Source: Defluviitaleaceae bacterium | GTDB lineage: Bacteria > Bacillota > Clostridia > Lachnospirales > WRAX01 | Direction of reading: 5' to 3' | Assembly (NCBI GenBank): GCA_009780415.1 | Contig: WRAC01000001.1 | Location: forward strand, 1 to 64,000 | DNA: 64,000 nucleotides | Part shown: positions 17,494 to 22,115 of the stretch, piece by piece | Numbering within the stretch: the first letter of the stretch is position 1 | Layout: every line of letters starts with the position of its first letter | Program-made: the position numbers and the translations under genes | The notes under the pieces: generated by a model | What the model saw: the letters and a program-made list of their open reading frames with translations, nothing else | The model's database searches: none | Told to the model about the DNA's origin: nothing

Positions 17494-18285
17494 CTACCCC
17501 AGCGCCACATCCAGCGCCATCATCACGCAGAACCCCAGAAGAACGCCAATTGCCGCTACTATTTTGTTATCTTTATATGATTCCGGGATAAGCTCCGAAC
17601 ACGCGACGGCGATCATTGCCCCGGCGGAAAAGGACAGGGCGAGGGGCAGCGCGCTGCGCATCGTCATTGCGAACAGGACGCCCAAAACGCCGGCTATGGG
17701 TTCGACGATGCCGGAGGCCTGGCCTATAAGGAAGCTTTTCGCGCGGGAAACGCCGTCGCGGCGGAGCGGCAGGGCTACGCAGACGCCCTCGGGGAAGTTT
17801 TGCAAGCCGATGCCGAAGGCCAGAAGTATCGCGCCCATTAACGTCGCGCCCTCCAGGCCGATTGCGACGCTGCCGAACGCCACGCCTATCGCCATGCCCT
17901 CGGGTATGTTGTGGAGCGTTACGGAGGAGGCTAGCAGGATGGAGCGTTTGTAAGTCGTGCCCTTGGATTGGATAATTGCCGCCCTGGAGAGCATCAAGTC
18001 CGCCCCGATTACGAGTAAGCCGCCCGCGATAAAGCCCGTGACGCATATAAACCACGCGTTTATGCCAAGCTCATGCGAAAGCTGTATGGCCGGGTCAAGA
18101 AGCGACCAGAACGACGCGGCTATCATTACGCCGGCGGCAAAGGCCATCATCAGGTCCAGGATTTTTTGGTTCATTGACTTGAAGAAGAAAACCAGCGCCG
18201 CGCCCAGCGCCGTTACGAGATATGTGAAAAGTGTGGCGTACAATGCCTGCAAAACAGGGTTTAAGTTTATAAACCAATCTATCAT
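17494..18285 (-). CDS. ZIP family divalent metal transporter (GufA type)
   Basis: 263 residues with about eight membrane helices, importing Zn2+ or related metals. It begins MIDWFINLNPVLQALYATLF, the normal start of GufA-type ZIP proteins. The metal-binding helices carry HNIPEGMAIGVAFG and GIGLQNFPEGVCVALP; the second motif has N-PEG where many ZIPs have H-xPEG, as usual for this branch. The ATG lies directly after a T6 run that ends a strong terminator hairpin, leaving no normal ribosome site. Confidence 0.92.
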   Translation of the reverse strand: MIDWFINLNPVLQALYATLFTYLVTALGAALVFFFKSMNQKILDLMMAFAAGVMIAASFWSLLDPAIQLSHELGINAWFICVTGFIAGGLLVIGADLMLSRAAIIQSKGTTYKRSILLASSVTLHNIPEGMAIGVAFGSVAIGLEGATLMGAILLAFGIGLQNFPEGVCVALPLRRDGVSRAKSFLIGQASGIVEPIAGVLGVLFAMTMRSALPLALSFSAGAMIAVACSELIPESYKDNKIVAAIGVLLGFCVMMALDVALG

Positions 18286-18335: not shown

Positions 18336-18370
18336 AATTAGTAAGCTTAATTAATTAGTAAGCTTAATTA
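18334..18370. repeat. 17-bp tandem duplication
   Basis: TTAATTAGTAAGCTTAA occurs twice head to tail (18334-18350, 18351-18367) with the start of a third unit. It spans the gap between the terminator and the stop codon of the 18364 gene, and looks like a local slippage duplication. Confidence 0.85.
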
Positions 18371-18627
18371 TTTTGCTTGATTTGAGGAATCTCTGAATCA
18401 TCGCTGTTGGTCATGTCGATGATTTCCTCGTGCTTGCGGCTTTTACCGCGCTTCTTACCGATCTCGACAGGCGGGTAGCCGTTGCGCAGCCGTTCTATGT
18501 TTTCCTCATGCTGCAATTGTTTTAAGCGCATTTGATGAATGCCTTTTACTCCGTCAACAATTATCGCCGTGATGGGTATCGTAAAGGCTAGTATGGCAAC
18601 TAAAGCCCATGGCTCTGCAAAGAACAT
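18364..18627 (-). CDS. small single-TM protein, NIERL-GYP family member 1
   Basis: 87 residues. An N-terminal helix (about 5-28, EPWALVAILAFTIPITAIIV) is followed by a charged cytoplasmic-looking tail: QLQHEENIERLRNGYPPVE, basic linker, then EEIIDMT and an acidic end. Two upstream neighbours share helix, N-ERL--GYP core and IDMT box, so the three are tandem paralogs. GGAGGCGG precedes the ATG. Last gene of the operon before the terminator. No known family recognised. Confidence 0.85.
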   Translation of the reverse strand: MFFAEPWALVAILAFTIPITAIIVDGVKGIHQMRLKQLQHEENIERLRNGYPPVEIGKKRGKSRKHEEIIDMTNSDDSEIPQIKQNN

Positions 18628-18655
18628 TTTTCCGCCTCCTTAATAAATGGACAAA

Positions 18656-18937
18656 CTAATTCCCCCGGCGTGTTTCCGGCGAATAATCCGGTTCATGGGC
18701 CGTCATATCAATTACCTCGGCGGATTTAAGCGCCTTTACTTCCCGTCCCTTATCGTCAATCGGCGGATACCCGCCGCGTAAGCGCTCAATATTTTCCTGA
18801 TGCCGGAGCATTTGCACCTGCGTGTTCGCCCGCGTAACATACATCTTCTTCATGCTATCCATCACAATCGCCGTTATCGGTATAAAAAAACCTATACCGA
18901 AAACCATCATCCACCAACCGGTTCCGAAGAAAAACAT
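18656..18937 (-). CDS. small single-TM protein, NIERL-GYP family member 2
   Basis: 93 residues. Helix at about 8-30 (GWWMMVFGIGFFIPITAIVM), then MLRHQENIERLRGGYPPID, a linker KGREVKALKS, and AEVIDMT with an acidic tail. Closest to member 1 ('PITAIV-D--K' after the helix is shared). GGGGGTTC precedes the start; 28 bases separate it from the next gene. Function unknown; the helix-coil-short-motif plan suggests a membrane-tethered partner protein. Confidence 0.85.
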   Translation of the reverse strand: MFFFGTGWWMMVFGIGFFIPITAIVMDSMKKMYVTRANTQVQMLRHQENIERLRGGYPPIDDKGREVKALKSAEVIDMTAHEPDYSPETRRGN

Positions 18938-18960
18938 TTTGAACCCCCTGTAACTATCAG

Positions 18961-19200
18961 TTAATTGCTTCCGGGATAACGGACGTCCGGTTCCTCGGTC
19001 ATATCTATGTAACCGGCGTCCTTTGCCCCGCCCGGCAAAGATTTTGTCGTGTGTCCCTCAAGCGTGGGATAGCCGCGCTTGATGCGCTCCATATTCTCGC
19101 TGTATCTGGTTCCGATCCTTACCACGTTTCCGATGCCCCACCATGTAACGCCCACAACGCCTACAATCATAACCAATGTAAAGAAACCCATTTTATTCAC
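18961..19200 (-). CDS. small single-TM protein, NIERL-GYP family member 3
   Basis: 79 residues. Helix at about 5-25 (FFTLVMIVGVVGVTWWGIG), then RYSENMERIKRGYPTLEGH and GYIDMTEEPD. It is the most diverged of the three but keeps N-(I/M)ER(L/I)--GYP and IDMT. First of the set in transcription order. The region before it (19201-19249) is too short for a strong promoter call. Confidence 0.83.
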   Translation of the reverse strand: MNKMGFFTLVMIVGVVGVTWWGIGNVVRIGTRYSENMERIKRGYPTLEGHTTKSLPGGAKDAGYIDMTEEPDVRYPGSN

Positions 19201-19249: not shown

Positions 19250-19696
19250 TTAGATATGCTTTTTATGTTTGTTCAGCGCGTCCAGGGTTTGGCGGCGGAA
19301 TGCGGGGGTGCGGGCTTTGGCGGAATCGGGCGCGGCGGGGAAAAGGTTTCCGTTTTTCAATTCCTCGGCGCGTATGGCTATATCCAGCTCCAGAACCCTG
19401 CTGATAAGGGCTTGAAGCTGGATTATATCTTCGCCGCACTCATCTTTTCTATATTCAAGCTCATGCTTAACGGTATCGAACATACGCTGGAATACCTCGT
19501 CGTACTCCAGGATGCCGTCGATATGCTTCTGCTTTTCGGCGGTTGTCCGCGCGAAGAACATGGCGCGTTCCGGCGAAGGCGGGCTTTGCATGATGGTTTC
19601 CTGGTTTTGGGAGATATTGAGTACGCCCAGCAGCGCTTCCTGCTTTTTCTCCAGAATTTCCTTTAAAACCTTCAGTGTTATCAGAAGTTCGTCCAT
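19250..19696 (-). CDS. coiled-coil protein, possibly FlgN-like
   Basis: About 148 residues, nearly all helical: MDELLITLKVLKEILEKKQE, then heptad-like stretches to the end. The opening and the general plan are like FlgN-type export chaperones, but no flagellar genes are present, so the name is tentative. The frame opens at 19756, inside the deacetylase gene; ATG 19696 lies four bases after that gene's TAG with GGCGAGG ahead of it and is preferred. Confidence 0.7.
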   Translation of the reverse strand: MDELLITLKVLKEILEKKQEALLGVLNISQNQETIMQSPPSPERAMFFARTTAEKQKHIDGILEYDEVFQRMFDTVKHELEYRKDECGEDIIQLQALISRVLELDIAIRAEELKNGNLFPAAPDSAKARTPAFRRQTLDALNKHKKHI

Positions 19697-19700
19697 ACGC

Positions 19701-21080
19701 CTACCTCGCCGTGCTTTTGCCGCTTCTGTAAGTGACCCCCGGCACAAGCCCGTCATTCATGTTGATCAATTCTTCAACGGTTACAAACACAAAGTCCTTT
19801 TCGCTGAGGGTTTTTATGACGATTTCGGCGGCGTCCGCCGTCCATTCGTAGACATCGTGCATAAGGATGATGCTGCCGTCCTGCGCGCGCTGGACGATGT
19901 GGTCCGCGATGCTTTGCGCGTTGGAATTCGTCCAGTCCCTCGGGTCGATATCCCATGTGATAATGGACATGTCAAGGCTTTTGGCAAAATCCGTAATGCG
20001 GGAGTTTGAGTCGCCGTAAGGCGGGCGCAGTAAAATAACCTGGGAGCCGGTGATGGACTCAATCAACCGGTTTGTTTCCAGTATCTGCCAGTTCATTTGC
20101 GATGACGTCACCTGGGTAAGCTGCCTGTGGTTGTAGCTGTGGTTGCCCACGCTGTGGCCTTCGCGGAACATACGCTCGACAATATCCGGCAAAATGGGGA
20201 TTTTGTGGCCCAGCACGAAGAAGGTCGCCTTTGCGTCGTACTCGGCAAGGGCGTCCAGTATCCGCGTGGTTACGCTGCGGCAGGGGCCGTCGTCAAAGGT
20301 CAGCGCGATGTATTTTTTGTTATCTTGGAACGCCGGTTTCACCTTTTCCTCGAACAAATCCAGGAGAGGGTTGATTTTACGCCATCCCGGAGGTAAGGAC
20401 GCGTCGGCCGGGAAGTGGGCGTCCTCGGCGGTGTTTTCCGCGAAGCCCGCGCCGGCGGTGATGTTCGTGTAATAATCAGCGGCGCGGAAAAACTTGCCAA
20501 ATTCGGAAATTGGCATTATAATCTCAGTATCCAGATATAGATAGAGGTTTTCCGTATCAAAGGCAAAGGAATTAAACTCCTTCCCGGCAAGCTCGAAACC
20601 GAAGCCGCCGTCCACCAAGTCGCCCAGTACAAGGCGGTTTGCGGTGAGGAGGTCGTAGGCCAGGCCCCTTGCGCGGTTTAACACAACCTCGCCCTCCCCG
20701 TTCCAGCCGACGGCGGTTATCTTGAAGCTTACCAGAAGCCGGTTGTAAGAGCGCGCCTCATAGCGCATCTCAAACCCGCCGCTTTCCGCCAAGGACTTGA
20801 AATAGTCTATTTCACCTTGTACATACGCTAAAATATCGCGGTTTATCTCGCCGCTTTCGGTTTTTGGAAAAACCGCCGATATATTATAAACGCCGTCCTC
20901 ATTGTACATCGCCGGCGATACGCCGTGCAAGGTGTCAAAAACCAACGCGCCGGGCTGGCTGCCCCCGCCGCTCAGCACCCCTGTGTCGGGATGGGTTAAA
21001 GCGTCAAAATCCGGATAACCCGCTCCGGATACGAATATAATTATTAATAAAACCGCGGTAAGTGTAATTGTTTTTTTCAA
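19701..21080 (-). CDS. polysaccharide deacetylase (NodB, CE4) with N-terminal domain
   Basis: 459 residues, exported: the N-terminus is a signal/anchor (KKTITLTAVLLIIIFVSGAG). Residues about 60-240 form a domain resembling DUF3298/DUF4163. The NodB domain follows with all five CE4 motifs: TFDDGP (catalytic base and metal aspartate), GNHSYNH (two metal histidines), RPPYG, W-IDPRDW, and ILMHD. It should de-N-acetylate peptidoglycan or another cell-surface glycan in a metal-dependent reaction. The following coiled-coil gene starts four bases after its stop. Confidence 0.93.
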   Translation of the reverse strand: MKKTITLTAVLLIIIFVSGAGYPDFDALTHPDTGVLSGGGSQPGALVFDTLHGVSPAMYNEDGVYNISAVFPKTESGEINRDILAYVQGEIDYFKSLAESGGFEMRYEARSYNRLLVSFKITAVGWNGEGEVVLNRARGLAYDLLTANRLVLGDLVDGGFGFELAGKEFNSFAFDTENLYLYLDTEIIMPISEFGKFFRAADYYTNITAGAGFAENTAEDAHFPADASLPPGWRKINPLLDLFEEKVKPAFQDNKKYIALTFDDGPCRSVTTRILDALAEYDAKATFFVLGHKIPILPDIVERMFREGHSVGNHSYNHRQLTQVTSSQMNWQILETNRLIESITGSQVILLRPPYGDSNSRITDFAKSLDMSIITWDIDPRDWTNSNAQSIADHIVQRAQDGSIILMHDVYEWTADAAEIVIKTLSEKDFVFVTVEELINMNDGLVPGVTYRSGKSTAR

Positions 21081-21122: not shown

Positions 21123-21824
21123 TTAATTAAAATTATCAAGGGCCGCCTGTACGGTTTCGTAACTTTTTATAAGCGCGGCGGGGGGAGATTTTTTTTGAAA
21201 ACCGGAAATAAGCTTTTTTATTTTTGCTTCTTCCCTTTTAAGTAAAATCAATAAGCCGGCGTCCTTGCTTTCAAGGAGCCTTGCTCCAAAGCGGTAGCCC
21301 GCGTCCGTATAGGCCGGCTCCGTGCCCGGGCGCGCGTCAATGGCAGCATAAAAATGCCCGTTCTCCGGCGTTAACGTTTCACGGGAAATATAAAAGCCCG
21401 CGGCATGTAAATAACGCCGCAGAGCCTCATGGTCCCGCTCGGGCGAAAGGATAAGCTGCCGCAGGCTCCCCGCGACCTCCGGCGACGCGCTCAGGATGGA
21501 AATAATGCTCATCCCGCCCATTCCGGCAACAGCGCAAACGGAAACCTCACCGGGAGACAGTACGGTCAGGCCGCCGCCCAACCGTAAGTCTATGTAATCC
21601 GACAGCCCAAAACGCCGGAACGTCTCCGCGGCGGCCCGCAGCGGGCCGGGGTTTATATCCGACGCGACGGCGCGTGAAAATATGCCCCTCTGTATAAGGG
21701 AGGCGCAGAGCAAGCCATGGTCGCAGCCGATATCGGCAAAACCCCCGCCGCCCTTGACCCAAGCGGCCATTTCAGCCAAAGCCTCCAGCCGCTTGGATAA
21801 TCTGATGTTACCTCGCTTCGACAA
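21123..21824 (-). CDS. trmK: tRNA (adenine22-N1)-methyltransferase
   Basis: About 230 residues, SAM-dependent enzyme making m1A22 in tRNA. The family's N-terminal RLSKRLEALAEMA is followed by the SAM loop FADIGCDHGLL, then SDINPGPL and CAVAGMGGMSI. The start is unclear. The frame runs to TTG 21857 inside spoVS; TTG 21824 is the nearest standard codon but lacks a ribosome site. GCGAGG, four to five bases upstream of ATC 21806, would place the initiator exactly where TrmK proteins normally begin (M-RLSKRL). Confidence 0.92.
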   Translation of the reverse strand: MSKRGNIRLSKRLEALAEMAAWVKGGGGFADIGCDHGLLCASLIQRGIFSRAVASDINPGPLRAAAETFRRFGLSDYIDLRLGGGLTVLSPGEVSVCAVAGMGGMSIISILSASPEVAGSLRQLILSPERDHEALRRYLHAAGFYISRETLTPENGHFYAAIDARPGTEPAYTDAGYRFGARLLESKDAGLLILLKREEAKIKKLISGFQKKSPPAALIKSYETVQAALDNFN

Positions 21825-22068
21825 TAAAGCGTATGGATGTCTTGGTCTCGCCGTCAACCTCTATTTCCTGGAACGCCGGTATCGCAACCAGGTTTATGTT
21901 TTCTTCGGAGACAAAGCTCCGGGCGACGCAGATGCTCTTCACAGCCTGATTTACGGCCCCCGCGCCGATAGCCGATACTTCAACGCTTTCACCGCGCCTG
22001 ACTACGGCCGCGATTGCGCCGGCAACGCCCTTTGGGTTCGAGCTGGCTGATACTTTTAATGTTTCCAT
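21808..22068 (-). CDS. spoVS: stage V sporulation protein S
   Basis: 86 residues, the standard SpoVS size: METLKVSASSNPKGVAGAIA, then SVEVSAIGAGAVNQAVKS and the closing FQEIEVDGETKTSIRFIVEAR. A small Alba-like nucleic-acid-binding protein of spore formers, needed for late sporulation in Bacillus. The ATG at 22066-22068 has GAGGAGGC upstream. Its 3' end overlaps the trmK frame. This gene is the best evidence that the organism can sporulate. Confidence 0.97.
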   Translation of the reverse strand: METLKVSASSNPKGVAGAIAAVVRRGESVEVSAIGAGAVNQAVKSICVARSFVSEENINLVAIPAFQEIEVDGETKTSIRFIVEAR

Positions 22069-22115
22069 GATATGCCTCCTCTTTGGGGATGTCGAAAAGC
22101 AAAACAATTTCTTAC

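Follow-up and report, generated by a model that had tools for sequence, protein, structure and literature searches.

Small membrane proteins are under-annotated. CcoQ, CydX and KdpF are examples of small subunits of membrane complexes, either enzymes or transporters. The described family that comes closest to the three small proteins considered in the present work (P1, P2 and P3) is DUF6249 (PF19762), in which an N-terminal transmembrane (TM) segment is followed, as it is in P1-P3, by the pattern [HY]xExxxxIKxGxxP. DUF6249 proteins differ in that they continue into a second hydrophobic half with a GG(L/F)(I/L)P region, which in the alignment only DUF6249 has, whereas P1-P3 carry instead a hydrophilic tail which is predicted to be disordered and which contains an IDMT box. 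A further point of comparison is offered by Toastrack, which has been assigned to phage-shock/Lia-type envelope-stress modules (PMC11237479); like the proteins described here, the small membrane proteins of these modules face the cytoplasm, but no Toastrack, PspC or LiaI-LiaF-TM gene adjoins any family member seen. The flagellar chaperones FlgN and FliT are also relevant, although the likeness to them belongs to the product of a neighbouring gene and not to P1-P3, and that gene, unlike those of the chaperones, lies outside any flagellar cluster. Keyword searches of the literature returned nothing on such small proteins and nothing relevant for DUF6249.

P1, P2 and P3 lie in tandem on the minus strand of the window (the whole 64,000-nucleotide stretch of DNA that was analysed), with gaps of 23 and 28 nt, and they follow the genes for SpoVS, TrmK, a polysaccharide deacetylase and a helical-bundle protein, in that order (Table 1).

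Table 1. Features of the operon-like run and of the hairpin beyond its last gene.
Feature	Position	Strand	Size or supporting value
SpoVS	21808..22070 (start approximate)	-	PF04232, E 2e-33
TrmK-type tRNA methyltransferase	21123..21857	-	PF04816, E 1e-40
Polysaccharide (peptidoglycan-type) deacetylase	19701..21080	-	PF01522, E 6e-39
FlgN/FliT-like helical-bundle protein ("coiled-coil protein")	19250..19696	-	148 aa
P1, small membrane protein assigned to type A	18961..19191	-	76 aa from ATG
P2, small membrane protein assigned to type B	18656..18937	-	93 aa
P3, small membrane protein assigned to type B, P2 duplicate	18364..18627	-	87 aa
Terminator-like hairpin and U-run 3' of P3	18294..18335	-	-27.9 kcal/mol, z -7.1

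The first-pass annotation, which was made from the DNA letters alone, had described three adjacent paralogous genes of 79-93 residues, and the presence of three homologous open reading frames at these positions is confirmed. Its sizes hold for P2 and P3, while P1 is better read as the shorter product in the table than as the 79-residue product of a GTG start at 19200, because the starts of relatives lie close to the ATG at 19191 and because the spacing there (GGAG-TGAATAAA-ATG) is better. Each gene is preceded by a plausible Shine-Dalgarno sequence (GGAG for P1, AGGGGG for P2 and AAGGAGG for P3). The identity between P2 and P3 is about 42% (E 4e-16), and P1 is more divergent from both (E 0.02 in a single-sequence search). 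When an independent HMM, built from 16 relatives which all lie outside the window, was run against the 819 six-frame segments of the window, it recovered exactly these three genes, with E-values of 1.3e-17 for P1, 1.2e-11 for P3 and 6.8e-9 for P2, the next segment being at 0.18; a search of the genome found no fourth copy. The differences between P2 and P3 at codon positions 1, 2 and 3 (40, 32 and 62 among 87 codons) follow the pattern of coding sequence. P1-P3 thus constitute a real small family without a name, whose homology is established by computation.

No usable Pfam, NCBIfam, PHROG or PDB-sequence family was found for P1-P3, the best Pfam, NCBIfam and PHROG values (about 0.01 to 0.5) being at chance level for the number of comparisons made. 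Across 19 members, Pfam listed no match at E <= 1 to PspB, CcoQ, CydX, TatA or other small TM subunits, a result which presumes that models for these exist, and the phage, plasmid and viral collections contained no relative, one plasmid scan giving chance-level matches only. No profile search of Pfam, NCBIfam or PHROG therefore placed all three proteins in a known family with an assigned function. The view that they belong to no known family is accordingly borne out as regards named families, and it must be qualified by the resemblance of their core, profile to profile, to the N-terminal third of DUF6249.

The predicted architecture of the family, which is well supported, consists of a TM helix that continues as a cytoplasmic helix with [HY]xExIERIKxGYP as its cap, and of a disordered tail. 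Each of P1-P3 has a single hydrophobic stretch near the N-terminus with positive charge after it, and the relatives likewise have an N-terminal hydrophobic stretch that is preceded by hardly any charged residues and followed by a segment whose net charge is mostly positive; because of this asymmetry the orientation is predicted to be N-out, C-in. An AlphaFold model of P2, computed from a 19-row alignment, consists of one helix from residue 6 to residue 54 which ends at GGYP and is followed by an unstructured, low-confidence tail, with block pLDDT values of 83-93 across residues 11-60. The single N-terminal helix per protein which had been proposed at the outset is upheld. The strongest conservation falls in the cytoplasmic ExIERIKxGYP rather than in the TM segment: within ExxxRIKxG, all 19 sequences compared have the E and the G, and nearly all have the R.

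Of eight tails, which come from the window's own bacterial family and one outgroup (G021), seven contain the motif [IV]D[MLI]T, as against a mean of 0.02 and a maximum of 2 for shuffled tails. Its carriers are P1, P2, P3, G004a, G004b, G006 and G021; it is missing from G003 and from most f5 members, and in the distant f24 versions VDLR or MDLR stands at its position. Of the two conserved motifs that were originally reported, both hold, but among the sequences collected only the TM segment and the ExIERIKxGYP core are general to the family, the IDMT box being restricted to the window's own bacterial family and the outgroup, with the MDLR/VDLR form in more distant relatives. The tails of P1-P3 had also been called acidic, which is true only mildly, since the net charge of their last 25 residues is -2 to -3.

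Two subtypes are distinguished on the basis of sequence comparison, with P1 as type A and P2 and P3 as type B. The best Smith-Waterman-type scores of P1 are with the G006 protein (Z 29) and G004a (Z 24), while P2 and P3 are each other's best match (Z 36), with G004b in second place (Z 17); the type B proteins (P2, P3 and G004b) have a longer linker between TM segment and core, and a proline in the TM segment. The A-then-B tandem order is repeated in G004, a genome of another genus, at an unlinked locus that has no deacetylase or bundle gene, the bundle gene of that genome lying behind a deacetylase on another contig (L081), and this recurrence suggests that A and B are used together. A phylogenetic tree cannot prove such joint use because the proteins are so short: it gives firm support only to P2 with P3 (100/98) and to one group of G248 copies, and is otherwise mostly unresolved.

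The kinship with DUF6249 was evaluated by profile-profile comparison against eleven DUF6249-type proteins from Bacillota. The matching part is the family core (TM segment plus [HY]xExxxxIKxGYxP) and the N-terminal third of DUF6249, for which hhalign gave a probability of 71% with the whole alignment and 80-85% with the core (E about 1e-5 over 27-36 columns), the latter figure being somewhat flattered because DUF6249 was picked post hoc, after weak matches had been seen. Thirty control alignments with shuffled juxtamembrane regions reached at most 29%, and a reversed alignment 0.5%. The weak matches were those of two distant short relatives to PF19762, at 15.3 and 15.2 bits against a curated cut-off of 33 bits; P1-P3 have no PF19762 match, and none above the 33-bit cut-off was found in the 12 carrier genomes. 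One relative, G248d (MFWVFMIVLVSLTFAFLMVLLDNAHKERMERIKHGLPP), forms a visible bridge to DUF6249 (MNWMLFLIVLMVLAAMVFAFLVRYFIHLERMALIKKGYIPP). P1-P3, which have no counterpart to its second half, are not members of DUF6249 but appear to be a truncated cousin of it. In Bacillota, DUF6249 genes occur beside Toastrack-type DUF4097 genes (L107 and L118 by test, L108-L111 alike by sequence) and, at L113 and L114, directly after genes for an ECF sigma factor and a small TM protein; this last protein is a putative anti-sigma factor, and the three genes possibly form a three-part sigma regulation unit. In the loci seen, no sigma factor or Toastrack gene immediately adjoins a family member.

Of 16 genomes from the window's own bacterial family, 4 carry the small proteins, as do 7 of 38 from a second family of the same order and one (G021) from a third; more distant versions occur in three f24 genomes. 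Samples of the class and phylum, about 390 genomes, contained nothing convincing and two weak phylum matches. Two more weak matches in the second family were rejected because they are sited in long frames, and the matches in G063, G232 and G203, like most of those with E 0.001-0.01, were set aside as chance, those that were checked lying in long unrelated frames. Because the distribution is patchy, the function is dispensable in most relatives. The named relatives are Defluviitaleaceae or Clostridiales MAGs which, according to their record names and to a paper on termite-gut MAGs that includes 67 Defluviitaleaceae genomes (PMC7024585), come from termite guts, and the window and the JAI- records are inferred to have a similar origin. 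One carrier genome, G248, has a four-copy tandem array of short versions (L045:7700-10610) beside a BlaI/MecI-type repressor gene (PF03965, 3e-24), copies 2 and 3 each having the palindrome AAACTTTAAGTTT upstream and the repressor a form one base longer, AAACTTTAAAGTTT; this operator-like palindrome was not found in the window. There are also three copies of an interspersed repeat of about 110 bases, starting with CATATCCCAAAATTCCG or similar, placed around the final member of the array and ahead of the repressor gene (L045:8930-9960).

The operon-like run with a coiled-coil protein and a cell-wall deacetylase, to which the first-pass annotation had drawn attention, is present as described, the genes being on one strand and closely spaced with a hairpin only at the end. 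The hairpin has an 18-pair stem interrupted by one internal mismatch and appears to mark the end of a transcription unit; the region that includes it has no Rfam match. The start codon of a ZIP transporter gene (17494-18285) lies at the end of the U-run, too close for an ordinary ribosome site to fit; the hairpin could also be a regulatory leader. In NCBIfam the deacetylase is PgdA/PdaB-like, under the equivalog cut-offs. The bundle protein has homologues in 28 of 41 relatives, several of them directly after a fliS-like gene; Pfam FlgN matches these homologues at 2e-5 at best and the window copy at 0.61, an AlphaFold model is all-helical (pLDDT 88), and a PDB fold search returned generic helical bundles such as syntaxin, none at E <= 0.001. 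Deacetylase, FlgN-like bundle and VOC-type genes form a recurrent trio in the window's bacterial family (L070-L078). Other loci place the family genes beside wecB-type epimerase, SLH, sporulation, cobalamin or transporter genes, several of which were named by sequence reading. In G006 the P1 orthologue is followed directly downstream, at the position of P2 and P3, by an element that carries an integrase and a Rep-like protein (L037:523-4036), and in one f24 genome a MarR-type regulator gene separates the distant homologue from a MATE-type gene. No neighbour is constant across the relatives' loci and genera, the deacetylase and coiled-coil protein included, and the neighbourhoods accordingly point to no partner.

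These neighbourhoods bear on the idea that P1-P3 are accessory proteins which anchor or regulate the deacetylase, or the helical-bundle chaperone, of the same operon. The spacing of 4 to 58 nt, the common strand and the terminal hairpin speak for such a function, and the order trmK-deacetylase-bundle-P1 is kept in G006, of another genus, where a trmK-like gene (by sequence reading) precedes the deacetylase at L037. This is, however, the only other genome that keeps it: the deacetylase-bundle pair is common in f1 genomes, and in the others that were read it occurs without family genes and, as a rule, with a VOC-type gene after it, while in most other carriers the small proteins lie apart from the pair. 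The shared run is consequently weak evidence for a joint function, because the pair is conserved separately and the relatives' sites are unrelated; since the deacetylase, moreover, works outside the cytoplasm and the conserved tails are predicted to lie inside, an accessory role of this kind is rather improbable. A role as small subunits within an enzyme or transporter complex of the membrane, with the TM helix as the important part and the tail as no more than an appendage, would fit the size and the single TM segment observed; some short relatives (46-57 aa) are hardly more than TM segment and core, and in two f24 genomes (L130/L134; L136) the distant homologue, with its VDLR or MDLR tail, lies near a MATE-type transporter gene (named from sequence). 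Conservation nevertheless peaks in the cytoplasmic ExIERIKxGYP instead of the TM helix, and no one enzyme or transporter recurs as a neighbour, so that this explanation too is unlikely.

The patchy occurrence, the tandem arrays (three copies in the window and four in G248) and the integrase-bearing element that adjoins the G006 copy could alternatively be read as marks of rapidly duplicating mobile or selfish peptides, similar to type I toxins, which are often spread and lost. This is very improbable in view of the long conserved hydrophilic half, the operon position, the lack of matches in phage, plasmid and viral collections, and the failure to see an antitoxin-like partner. In type I systems toxicity is repressed by an antisense RNA; the region has no Rfam match.

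The preferred reading, to which a probability of about 0.4 is assigned as a whole, is that P1-P3 are membrane-anchored adaptors. They would be single-pass inner-membrane proteins with the N-terminus predicted to be outside and the C-terminus inside, in which the TM helix extends into the cytoplasm as a charged helix up to the Gly-Tyr-Pro cap, after which a flexible tail would bear the short linear motif [IV]D[MLI]T. The juxtamembrane ExIERIKxGYP may make a conserved contact, either with a membrane partner or between an A and a B paralogue, and the tail peptide may dock a cytoplasmic protein at the membrane. The binding role at the membrane which had been suggested from the conserved motifs is thus plausible, although the absence of the IDMT box from most f5 members means that binding through the tail cannot be what the family as a whole does. 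Given the remote relationship to the N-terminal third of DUF6249, the process most likely to be involved would be envelope homeostasis or stress signalling; the link to stress is possibly real, its basis being a distant post hoc profile match and the neighbours of other proteins. The G248 array beside a BlaI/MecI-type repressor gene also counts in favour of the preferred reading. A more specific version, in which an undescribed family of paired A and B tail proteins, largely from termite-gut-type Clostridia and akin to the N-terminal part of DUF6249, uses the GYP-capped helix and the IDMT box as a two-part dock for one cytoplasmic partner, is doubtful.

The present work is a modest advance rather than the discovery of a new kind of system, as the family is narrow and patchy and has a detectable cousin. 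What is new is the existence, judged from sequence, of two subtypes with a recurring tandem order, and the match of the core to the N-terminal third of DUF6249. An unnamed family can thereby be described by a profile, by its division into two subtypes and by two motifs, and has been linked distantly to DUF6249; the partner of the tail, once found, would inform on both the P1-P3 family and DUF6249.
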